Notes under the pieces: model-generated | The model's database searches: none | What the model was told of the DNA's origin: nothing | The model's input: the letters and a program-made list of their open reading frames with translations, nothing else | Part shown: in pieces, positions 24,745-28,035 of the stretch | How the letters are laid out: every line of letters begins with the position of its first letter | Numbering within the stretch: the first letter of the stretch is position 1 | Assembly (NCBI GenBank): GCA_003056285.1 | Contig: NDWU01000012.1 | Span: 1-44,467 of the forward strand | Source: Candidatus Terraquivivens tikiterensis | GTDB lineage: Archaea; Thermoproteota; Nitrososphaeria_A; Caldarchaeales; Wolframiiraptoraceae | Reading direction: 5' to 3' | Length of the DNA stretch: 44,467 nucleotides | Program-made: the position numbers and the translations under genes

Positions 24745-24810
24745 TCTTCTAGGCACCGGGGCTCCTCGTTTTACCCGGAGAGCATCCGACGGTAATGGGT
24801 GAGGAAGTTG

Positions 24811-24819
24811 CTTATATTC
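24811..24819 (+). promoter_or_regulatory. TATA box for hjc
   Basis: CTTATATTC is centred 34 bases upstream of ATG 24849. It lies inside the longer open frame that starts at 24795, so it argues for the shorter protein. Confidence 0.5.
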
Positions 24820-24848
24820 GCGCAAAAACAGCGAAGGCGGTGGACTGG

Positions 24849-25280
24849 ATGCCCAAGAAGCCTAAGGACGTGCTTTCTCCTCGATACAAGGCTAGGATCG
24901 GTTACGAGAGCGAGTACACCCTCGTAAAAAAGCTGGTGAGCAAGGGCTGGCCCGGATGGTATGCCGTAAGGACCCCAGGGAGCGGGAGCGGGAAGATGGC
25001 GAAGCCAGACATCATAGCCGTCGAGAACGGAGAGCTGTATGCGATAGAGGTCAAGTCCAGCAGGAAGCCATACGTCATGCTGAACAGGGAGCAGGTCAGG
25101 AGGCTCCTCGAATTCTGTAGAATGTTCCGCCTAAGGTGTCCGCACTGCGGAAGGGAGATCGCAGCAAAGCCTGTAGTGGCGGTTAGGTTCATGGGTCATG
25201 GATGGGAATTCGTCCAAGTTCCAGAAGAGGCCGACCGACCGATAATAGTAAAGAGAAAAGCTAAGGGCATAAGCTCCTAG
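24849..25280 (+). CDS. hjc: Holliday junction resolvase Hjc with an extra CPHC insert
   Basis: 143 residues. Archaeal Hjc cuts four-way DNA junctions. The nuclease core is visible: Glu in IGYESEYTLV, the basic loop RTPGSGSGKMA, Asp in KPDIIAV and the Glu-x-Lys in AIEVKSS. Between the core and the last strand there is RLRCPHCGREI, a CxxC segment that most Hjc proteins lack; it could hold zinc with other residues or a partner chain. ATG 24849 has GGTGG upstream and a TATA box in place; ATG 24795 would add 18 residues. It follows nreA after a 104-base gap. Confidence 0.9.
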   Translation: MPKKPKDVLSPRYKARIGYESEYTLVKKLVSKGWPGWYAVRTPGSGSGKMAKPDIIAVENGELYAIEVKSSRKPYVMLNREQVRRLLEFCRMFRLRCPHCGREIAAKPVVAVRFMGHGWEFVQVPEEADRPIIVKRKAKGISS

Positions 25281-25512: not shown

Positions 25513-25908
25513 TTACCCATTTTTTCTCATTTTGCCTTGCTCTACCGGATTGAGCCTTATAACCCTCTCCTCGCGGGTTTGTCCAAAAACCCTCCTTTCA
25601 ACTTCGCCAAGCTCTATCAGCAAAGGGCTGAGAAAGTGGCTGAGCGACTGCGAATTCTTGAGCCATTTCCTCTCAGAAGGTTTTGAAAGGTATCCTATTT
25701 GGACGAGTGCTTGAAGCAGGTTCGATATGCTCCTTCTCTTTTTCTTATCCCTCGTGATCTCCGGTGGCAAAAGCTCGGCCACCTGCGTTAAAGTGAAGGG
25801 TTGGGCATGCATGTTTGCTATGGCTGCCAAGATCATCTCTATCTCCTCGGGCCTCAGCAACCTTGTTTTCCAGCTAAGCATCGTGACTATTGGATGGAAC
25901 CTACCCAT
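25513..25908 (-). CDS. Winged-helix-like protein of unknown function
   Basis: 131 residues, not recognised as a named family. Residues 18-90 look like a winged helix: RPEEIEMILAAIANM, a turn, FTLTQVAELLP, then SISNLLQALVQIGYLSK as a recognition-type helix with the following basic ERKWLKN. The tail is variable. It begins 9 bases after the coiled-coil gene on the same strand, so the two are co-transcribed and probably work together. It could bind DNA at a fixed site or mediate protein contacts as wHTH domains do in SMC kleisin partners. The function is unknown. Confidence 0.72.
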   Translation of the reverse strand: MGRFHPIVTMLSWKTRLLRPEEIEMILAAIANMHAQPFTLTQVAELLPPEITRDKKKRRSISNLLQALVQIGYLSKPSERKWLKNSQSLSHFLSPLLIELGEVERRVFGQTREERVIRLNPVEQGKMRKNG

Positions 25909-25917
25909 ATGCCATTC

Positions 25918-27387
25918 CTACCTCTGGTAGAGCTTTAGGATAACTTCCGGGTCTATGACGTTGTCCCTCTTGCAGGAAGAGCACACCATCTTCATAGACT
26001 CCCCGGCACCCTTAAGCCCGACCAACTCCTCAACGCTGGGCATCCAAACCAATGTTCCGGCCCTACAGTACCTGCATATTATCTTGACCCTCTTACCGCT
26101 GGGCGCTTTAGGAACCCTTTCCCCTGTCGTAGCCTTTACAAGAAAGGCCACCTGTTCAGCGTCCTTAGATGTCTCGGCGGATAGGTCAACCTGCATGGAC
26201 TTGAGGGAACTCTTTAAGGACTGCAACTCCTCCTCCAGCTTGGCCCTTTTCTCCACCAGGCTCTCGAACTGCCTCTCCAACCTTTCGAAGACCCACTTCG
26301 GGACAAACTCACCGGATAGGGCGGGCATGACCAGCTCCACCAGCCTTTTTCTAGTCTTCTCTAAAAGATGGCCCTCCAGAGGCTTCAGCATCGGAAGCTC
26401 ACCACGCTTTATCTTCAGTATGTTGTTCAGCTGTTGGATGAGAGCCTCGATATCCTCTGGCTGGGTAGTTTGAGGCTCTGATAGCAAAGCAAGGAGAGAC
26501 CTAGCGGCGTTCAGCTCATCCTCGAGCTCCTTGAGAGTCGTCTGCCTTTTCGAAACCTCCTCATCCAACCTCTTAAGCTCTTCTCTCTTATATTCCAGAG
26601 CCGAAAGCAGCTCCTTCACGGTCCCCTTCATCCCAAGTAGCGATGAGTACTCGGCGTATAGGGCCTCATGCAACCTCTTCAGCTCCTCAACCTCCTGCTT
26701 TAGAGCCTCGCGTTGGGCTCTTAGATCCTCCAAGGCGGATTTTATCATGCTTGCATCCGACTTGACGTTAAGGAGCTCAGCACACTCTTGAAGGAGAGAA
26801 TCGCGTTTCATGCTCGCATCGTTCACCGATGCCTCAACCTCTTTAAGTTTCTGCTCAAATTCCGTGATCTGCCTACTAAGATCGCCAGCTTTAATTATCT
26901 GCTCGACAACGTCCTTAGGGTCGCCCCGGATGCTCCTTATGGAGTTCAGCACAGCGACGAGCCTCTCGGCATCCTCCAGCCCTAGCCCGGATTGTTCCAG
27001 AACGGAGAGCAGGGAGTTAACTTTGCTCACGATTTCAAGAGTGAGCTTCCTTTGCTGCATGTAAATTTCCAAATCCTCCTCAAGCCTTACCCTCTTCTTC
27101 CTCAAGTCCTCTATCGCATACTCTATAGTTACGAGCTCCCTTGCCTTTTTCTCGTACTCTTTCAGCAGGGCTCCTATACTCTTCCCCGTCTCCTTTTCCA
27201 GCCTTCTCAACCTGGTCATGGCCCTCGCGTAATACCTGATCTTCGAGGGCTCTTTTCCGACGCTCTCGAGGGCGTCGAGGAAATCCTCAAGCTTCTGTAA
27301 CGGTACGCCTATTCCGTTCAGCCTGCGTACCAGCTCCTCTACCTTCTGGGCCGGCTCGCTTTCTTTAAAGACTCCTTCCTCTGTCAA
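25918..27387 (-). CDS. Long coiled-coil protein with C-terminal zinc ribbon, function unknown
   Basis: 489 residues. An N-terminal helical domain (about 1-75) is followed by long heptad-rich coiled coils (about 75-320 and 365-410) and a C-terminal CRYC...CSSC zinc ribbon (IICRYCRAG and MVCSSCKRD). No Walker A or signature motif is present, so it is not an SMC or Rad50 ATPase, though the body resembles one. A TATA box (minus strand TTTTTATATTC, near 27425) and the TTG at 27387 mark the start. It forms an operon with a winged-helix protein. A chromosome-organising, membrane-tethering or transcription role is possible; none can be claimed. Confidence 0.75.
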   Translation of the reverse strand: MTEEGVFKESEPAQKVEELVRRLNGIGVPLQKLEDFLDALESVGKEPSKIRYYARAMTRLRRLEKETGKSIGALLKEYEKKARELVTIEYAIEDLRKKRVRLEEDLEIYMQQRKLTLEIVSKVNSLLSVLEQSGLGLEDAERLVAVLNSIRSIRGDPKDVVEQIIKAGDLSRQITEFEQKLKEVEASVNDASMKRDSLLQECAELLNVKSDASMIKSALEDLRAQREALKQEVEELKRLHEALYAEYSSLLGMKGTVKELLSALEYKREELKRLDEEVSKRQTTLKELEDELNAARSLLALLSEPQTTQPEDIEALIQQLNNILKIKRGELPMLKPLEGHLLEKTRKRLVELVMPALSGEFVPKWVFERLERQFESLVEKRAKLEEELQSLKSSLKSMQVDLSAETSKDAEQVAFLVKATTGERVPKAPSGKRVKIICRYCRAGTLVWMPSVEELVGLKGAGESMKMVCSSCKRDNVIDPEVILKLYQR

Positions 27388-27463
27388 GGGCTTTTCTGCC
27401 GAATCTATTCGAATAATGAATATAAAAATATTGTTCGGAAGTTTGTGATGGACCCTCGGCCTA

Positions 27464-27475
27464 ATACCTAGGTAT
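27464..27475. repeat. 12-base perfect palindrome
   Basis: ATACCTAGGTAT lies in the 222-base gap between the coiled-coil operon and ssb, about 75 bases upstream of the coiled-coil start. It may be an operator. Nothing else stands out in this gap. Confidence 0.35.
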
Positions 27476-27609
27476 CAGTTCCTGCACGGATTCTTCATCG
27501 TTACATAGTAACTCTGTAATACCCGCTTTCATCATTCGTCATAACGTCGCATAGCGGTCACTAATTAGCGTTTTGGCTCAAGAAGCCAGTAGCCGCCTGG
27601 CCCTCTAGT

Positions 27610-28035
27610 TTACTTCTGCCTACCTCTCCTTCCTGTCTGGAACCTTCTTCCACGTGGCCTACCGTAACCTTCTTCAGGGGGTAAAGACCTCGTCGAAAGG
27701 TTGTTTTCTGTGTTGACGGACGGTATCTTCTCGTCAACGACCTCTATCGAGCCGTACCTTCCAAGGTTCAGCTGCATAAAGCCCTTGAATGGTTTTACGA
27801 AGGCATTAGTGATCTTAACGACGTCTCCCTCGTTTATCTTATCTACGTTTTCGTCCCAAAGGACCAAAGTTATAGCACCGGTCTCGTCGGCAATCAGGGT
27901 CTCAGTAAGCCTATGCTCCCTCTGGTCGAACTTCGAGGCTACAAACCTCTCCTCATCCTTTTTTACAACCTTCGCGAGAAGGTTTACGGAACGCGACCAC
28001 GGGTTCAGGTTTCCGATTTTTACTAACCCGCTCAA
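27610..28035 (-). CDS. ssb: Single-stranded DNA-binding protein, crenarchaeal OB-fold type
   Basis: 141 residues. One OB fold (IGNLNPWSRSVNLLAKVV, LIADETGAITLVLWDENV, INEGDVVKITNAFVKPFKG, FMQLNLGRYGSI) is followed by a flexible RG-rich tail (GYGRPRGRRFQTGRRGRQK). This matches the short SSB of Sulfolobus and relatives, which coats ssDNA and recruits repair proteins; euryarchaea use RPA instead. The TTG start is preceded by AAAAAAGG, and a TTAAATA box lies about 45 bases upstream. The tail is basic, unlike the acidic tail of some homologues. Confidence 0.9.
   Translation of the reverse strand: MSGLVKIGNLNPWSRSVNLLAKVVKKDEERFVASKFDQREHRLTETLIADETGAITLVLWDENVDKINEGDVVKITNAFVKPFKGFMQLNLGRYGSIEVVDEKIPSVNTENNLSTRSLPPEEGYGRPRGRRFQTGRRGRQK

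Follow-up and report, generated by a model that had tools for sequence, protein, structure and literature searches.

A lineage-specific pair of coiled-coil and winged-helix genes in the archaeal order Caldarchaeales

Can a long coiled-coil protein without ATPase motifs and a small winged-helix protein, encoded side by side among genes of DNA metabolism, be parts of a system that has not been described, and if so what could they do? The question is raised by one locus in the window (the whole stretch of DNA that was analysed, 44,467 nucleotides of contig NDWU01000012.1 from Candidatus Terraquivivens tikiterensis), for which a reading made from the sequence alone had proposed an undescribed two-gene unit. 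The coiled-coil protein, with its C-terminal zinc ribbon, is referred to here as CC and the basic winged-helix protein as wHTH. Our answer is that the two form a real, undescribed and lineage-specific pair, the novelty of which lies in unassigned protein families and not in a demonstrated new system.

The two genes and their proteins

The CC gene (25918-27387, minus strand) encodes 489 amino acids from a TTG start that is kept in the alignment of five Terraquivivens loci, and the wHTH gene (25513-25908, minus strand) encodes 131 amino acids with a pI of about 10.5, against 6.0 for CC. The two ORFs lie where the sequence-only reading had placed them, 9 bp apart, and share a frame. Both genes are real and evolve under purifying selection. 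Within genus, dN/dS is 0.09-0.18 for wHTH and about 0.07 for CC (the closest pair; the other CC comparison was saturated at synonymous sites), and these low ratios, together with conservation across 44 genomes, argue that the ORFs are not there by chance. A TATA-box-like element (27419-27435, minus strand), conserved in a five-genome alignment, precedes the CC TTG, so that CC and wHTH probably have a promoter of their own, separate from the SSB gene upstream. A candidate C/D-box sRNA (window 27473-27539, minus strand; ATGATGA ... CGATGAA ... CTGA) is also kept between SSB and CC in five Terraquivivens loci; its top Rfam match, sR2, scores 16.3 bits, under the family cut-off of 42.

CC is rich in leucine (15%) and glutamate (14%), and heptad periodicity, with a period near 3.5 residues, is significant at residues 50-135 and 157-303. 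Internal repeats of about 45 residues were suspected as well and were set aside, as they mostly did not rise above block-shuffled controls. In an AlphaFold2 model of CC fused to wHTH, CC is predicted to form helices of 62, 49, 42 and 47 residues with short breaks between them, followed by a helical segment containing the motif VPKWVFERLE (residues 362-371; 26275-26304, minus strand) and then by the zinc ribbon. The only cysteines of the window protein are 202, 438, 441, 469 and 472; the last four make up the C-terminal ribbon (25963-26085, minus strand), which holds the sole CxxC pairs, and Cys202 stands alone in the coil. Of the 18 aligned full-length homologues, 16 have both CxxC spacings. 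An N-terminal block at residues 53-130 (26998-27231, minus strand), in which the full-length homologues share many invariant residues, is absent from the short homologues of the family Calditenuaceae. Because these short proteins align with full-length CC over the VPxWVFxxLE-helix-ribbon segment, this segment is, on the alignment, the conserved core of the CC family.

The winged-helix call for the smaller protein was borne out by AlphaFold2, with a mean pLDDT of 84 for the model and values of 93-96 over residues 21-100. The model shows a winged helix with an additional helix at the N-terminus and one of 21 residues at the C-terminus, in the order helix-strand-helix-helix-strand-strand-helix (DSSP). 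Basic residues in the recognition helix and wing are invariant or near-invariant across the alignment; R59 is invariant in the predicted recognition helix (residues 55-70; 25699-25746, minus strand), and S78, R80 and K81 in the predicted wing (residues 74-84; 25657-25689, minus strand). A protein so modelled probably binds nucleic acid.

Sequence searches of Pfam, NCBIfam, PADLOC, PHROGs and the PDB returned nothing beyond coiled-coil noise and generic HTH or zinc-ribbon noise; for CC, those of Pfam, NCBIfam, PADLOC and the PDB gave coiled-coil or ribbon noise only. Foldseek gave no PDB match at E <0.001, whether wHTH was queried by itself or in fusion with CC; the nearest structures to wHTH were many MarR/IclR-type and DpnI winged-helix domains, all weak and with low TM-scores, the best at E 0.016. 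On its predicted structure, wHTH is a winged helix of no identifiable family. Neither protein has a confident match to a known family, and the proposal of an undescribed, conserved two-gene unit is supported.

The sequence-only reading had also seen in CC the arms of an SMC or Rad50 protein and had drawn an analogy with kleisin-type complexes. If this were so, CC would be an SMC/Rad50-type protein reduced to its arm and wHTH its kite- or kleisin-type partner, together making an ATPase-less loop organiser. A coiled coil does stand beside a winged helix, and NCBIfam models for ASRP, Rad50 and SMC match CC weakly; these matches reach at most 38 bits against cut-offs of 300-1087 (ASRP 38.2 against 300; Rad50 26.9-30 against 700-1087), and the resemblance to SMC or Rad50 arms holds for composition only. 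SMC, Rad50 and ASRP have, besides a hinge or hook, Walker motifs at either end (PMC9389158). As had been noted from the sequence, CC has a terminal zinc ribbon and no ATPase motifs: Walker A (G-x4-GK[ST]) occurs in none of the 18 full-length sequences, LSGG is absent from the window protein, the 18 homologues have no zinc hook, and no SMC_hinge match falls at the CC locus. The helices of CC, none longer than 62 residues, are predicted to break every 40-60 residues and would not give two long arms. In kite proteins the wHTH domains come in tandem (PMC7055376). The kleisin analogy fails on similar grounds, since wHTH has a single such domain in only 131 amino acids, is neither a tandem kite nor a kleisin, and gives no match to the ScpA model PF02616 at its locus, and since SMC and ScpB are encoded elsewhere. 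On another contig of the same genome (contig C10 of G000, L173:4884-9837) an SMC-type protein of 1,154 amino acids is followed after about 0.9 kb by the start of ScpB, which is found in 43 of the 44 genomes of the order. This reading was rejected, and it would be very surprising if it proved correct. PF02616 found no ScpA in this genome; a 180-residue ORF between SMC and ScpB, which that model does not recognise, is a candidate for a divergent ScpA.

Distribution and gene order

wHTH is found in single copy in 44 of 44 genomes of the order Caldarchaeales (Aigarchaeota), whose members live in hot springs. When 398 Thermoproteota genomes were searched with its profile, these 44 were recovered together with six short, weak matches (best E 2e-5), and there was no convincing homologue in the other 354 genomes. 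A profile scan of named genomes found 35 loci, titled with Caldarchaeales/Aigarchaeota genera or with older, broader labels, the nearest relatives being Ca. Terraquivivens species. Judged by these searches, wHTH is an order-specific core gene. Full-length CC occurs in 30 genomes belonging to two of the four families, namely Wolframiiraptoraceae (Terraquivivens, Wolframiiraptor, Benthortus and Geocrenenecus; 22/22) and Caldarchaeaceae (Caldarchaeum/Pelearchaeum/HR01; 8/8, with one gene split over two contigs). In Calditenuaceae/HR02 only the C-terminal 190 or so residues of CC are matched, in ORFs of about 210-340 amino acids in 10 of 12 genomes, and in the further Caldarchaeales family, f3, CC was not found (0/2 genomes, both at least 97% complete). 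A search of the same 398 genomes with a C-terminal CC profile gave no credible homologue outside the order. The two best outside matches were dismissed; one is an unrelated short coiled coil (genome G237) and the other a TIR-like protein of Thermoproteota genome G327 (L126:4885-5622) that ends in a zinc ribbon like that of CC. Within the genomes searched both proteins appear to be confined to Caldarchaeales, and the co-occurrence across archaea for which a search had been proposed does not hold.

A part in anti-phage defence or in mobile elements was considered and rejected, as PADLOC gave coiled-coil noise only, wHTH is universal in the order, and a scan of viral contigs, which depends on short peptide patterns, detected neither CC nor wHTH at the sensitivity used. 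Single copy, order-wide presence, purifying selection and absence from the viral contigs scanned suggest that wHTH is a housekeeping rather than a mobile gene.

In 30 of 30 genomes with a full-length CC, wHTH follows it directly; on named contigs, every pair that was measured lies on one strand, with a gap between -8 and +37 bp. The condition by which the sequence-only reading would have been refuted, homologues that are never adjacent, does not hold in these 30 genomes, but the pairing is absent in Calditenuaceae and no CC was found in f3. The pair is not obligate, since 14 of the 44 genomes have wHTH without a neighbouring CC, and in f3 without any detectable CC. Because wHTH is unpaired in Calditenuaceae and no CC was found in f3, wHTH would appear to have a role that does not need CC alongside.

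Pfam confirmed Hjc, Nre and SSB as neighbours in the window, where a MazG-domain gene is also present. The gene for the Holliday junction resolvase Hjc (24795-25280, plus strand) adjoins wHTH, and that for SSB, with a single OB-fold (27610-28035, minus strand), lies upstream of CC. Adjacency of wHTH and hjc, seen in 32 of 44 genomes, is as wide as the link between CC and wHTH (30 of 44). The two genes are convergent in Wolframiiraptoraceae and in f3, where wHTH adjoins hjc with no detectable CC, and co-directional in Caldarchaeaceae, where CC, wHTH and hjc all run one way with hjc downstream; in Ca. Caldiarchaeum 6 bp separate CC from wHTH, which overlaps the following hjc by 1 bp. The C-terminal half of the window Hjc contains a CPHCG (CxxC) stretch, also read in the f3 and Caldiarchaeum homologues, which is possibly a metal site shared across a dimer. 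CC lies downstream of SSB in Wolframiiraptoraceae and Caldarchaeaceae; in the latter family and in some Calditenuaceae genomes the two are separated by a pair of NfeD and SPFH genes in divergent orientation. This NfeD and SPFH (Band 7) pair (L034, L035, L037, L038, L055, L056, L165, L166) adjoins SSB in Caldarchaeaceae and several Calditenuaceae and is divergent from CC where present.

The arrangement in Calditenuaceae is of a different kind. There wHTH directly follows rpoD (Rpb3)-rpl18e-rpl13 (L048:8098-9965, L045:8138-10101, L050:7737-9647; rpl18e assigned solely from its position and the look of its sequence), far away from the genes for CC, Hjc and SSB. In archaea it is often rps9 that comes next after rpl13. 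These RNA polymerase and ribosomal neighbours point to a general housekeeping or transcriptional function, and wHTH could be a sequence-specific, MarR/IclR-like regulator of housekeeping genes, with CC as a co-regulated or co-regulating partner. Its closest folds are of the bacterial MarR and IclR types, and Pfam HTH_IclR matches 5 of 19 members weakly (13.3 bits in the window, cut-off 22). However, wHTH has no effector domain, the fold matches have E >0.01 and low TM-scores, and inspection by eye of five congeneric genomes showed no conserved operator palindrome next to the TATA-like sequence upstream of CC. We consider such a regulator unlikely.

Two Calditenuaceae genera have CC near SSB, NfeD and SPFH without wHTH. 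Calditenuaceae genome G034 carries, within a few kb of its short CC gene, another hjc-like sequence that contains a stop and falls into two pieces (contig C42:32149-32552). A small tree of wHTH, Hjc and SSB placed Calditenuaceae apart under midpoint rooting, but because its deep nodes are weak (44-60) and Wolframiiraptoraceae are not monophyletic under that root, the tree does not tell gain of the pairing from loss. It might be supposed that CC and wHTH are unrelated genes, their adjacency having arisen once before the split of Wolframiiraptoraceae and Caldarchaeaceae and been kept in compact genomes. Few events would suffice, as the order SSB...CC-wHTH-hjc is common to these two families and absent in Calditenuaceae, and CC keeps its place by SSB, NfeD and SPFH without wHTH in the two genera mentioned. 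Against this, the nearly overlapping ORFs have stayed together in 30 of 30 genomes although the orientation of hjc and the interval between SSB and CC have changed, which makes mere proximity improbable.

Possible functions of the pair

What can most safely be inferred for wHTH is binding to double-stranded DNA and, throughout the order, a role for which CC need not be a neighbour. Beyond this, the fact that CC, wherever it is full length, is paired with wHTH suggests that in two families the proteins work together, and the hjc and SSB neighbourhood points to recombination or replication. The reading that we tentatively prefer, at less than even confidence, is that wHTH is a core, order-specific protein whose recognition helix and wing, both basic and conserved, bind double-stranded DNA, and that in Wolframiiraptoraceae and Caldarchaeaceae it is made together with CC. 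CC, an ATPase-less coiled-coil protein, would be a rod-like and probably dimeric scaffold, holding wHTH-bound DNA or bringing partners to it, and the two might act near the recombination or replication intermediates served by the adjacent Hjc and SSB. The invariable pairing, the hjc link, the fold and conserved basic residues of wHTH and the contrast in pI between the proteins speak for this scaffold model; the unpaired wHTH genes, and their position in Calditenuaceae, speak against it. We infer DNA binding, contact between CC and wHTH, dimerisation of CC and any role in recombination from evidence of this kind. The fused, read-through alignment of CC and wHTH folded with a pTM of 0.26 and gave no confident arrangement of the two in AlphaFold2, and the proximity of CC, wHTH and hjc does not prove that they function jointly.

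It is also possible, if somewhat unlikely, that wHTH is a small chromatin protein like Sso10a, dimerising through its C-terminal helix and bending or bridging DNA, with CC as an optional organiser in two families. The topology of Sso10a is a1-b1-a2-a3-b2-b3-a4 (PMC4941522), which the order predicted for wHTH matches, including the 21-residue C-terminal helix, and a small, basic, single-copy protein universal in the order would suit such a role. Yet no chromatin wHTH family of Pfam or NCBIfam was matched, Sso10a having no match among 19 wHTH members, and no PDB fold match was significant; it would also be left unexplained why wHTH is so strictly paired with CC and linked to hjc. A more specific proposal, which we regard as improbable, is that CC, wHTH and Hjc make up a complex, specific to the order, that captures and processes Holliday junctions or stalled forks; in it wHTH would bind the DNA arms, CC bridge or space them, and Hjc cut. 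If true, the three would be an archaeal accessory set directing a resolvase, without known relative.

On the scaffold model, CC would be a lineage-specific partner of a core wHTH beside Hjc and SSB. Should the pair act on DNA, it would supply a concrete recombination or chromatin component in Aigarchaeota, the DNA machinery of which is little studied. The separation of the genes in Calditenuaceae, and f3 with no CC found, offer natural experiments on the need for CC, and the pair is a fair candidate for bench work.

Comparison with known systems

Several known systems resemble the pair in part. SMC-ScpA-ScpB likewise brings coiled coils and wHTH domains together in one unit; CC and wHTH differ in lacking an ATPase and a hinge, in having a single rather than a tandem wHTH, and in lying at another locus from SMC and ScpB. 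The coalescin ClsN (ASRP) and Rad50 have weak coiled-coil similarity to CC, whereas their Walker A and mid-coil zinc hook (PMC9389158) are missing from it. Unlike the kite proteins (ScpB/MukE/Nse1/3), wHTH has one winged helix and one C-terminal helix, and unlike the kleisin ScpA it does not join an N-terminal helical domain to a C-terminal wHTH in one chain. With MarR and IclR regulators wHTH shares the general fold, without a significant match in sequence or fold and without their effector domain. Sso10a of Crenarchaeota is similar in being small and basic and in having the same topology with a C-terminal helix (DSSP of the AlphaFold2 model); wHTH is distinguished from it by an extra N-terminal helix, by its restriction to one order and by being encoded, in two families, with a separate coiled-coil protein.
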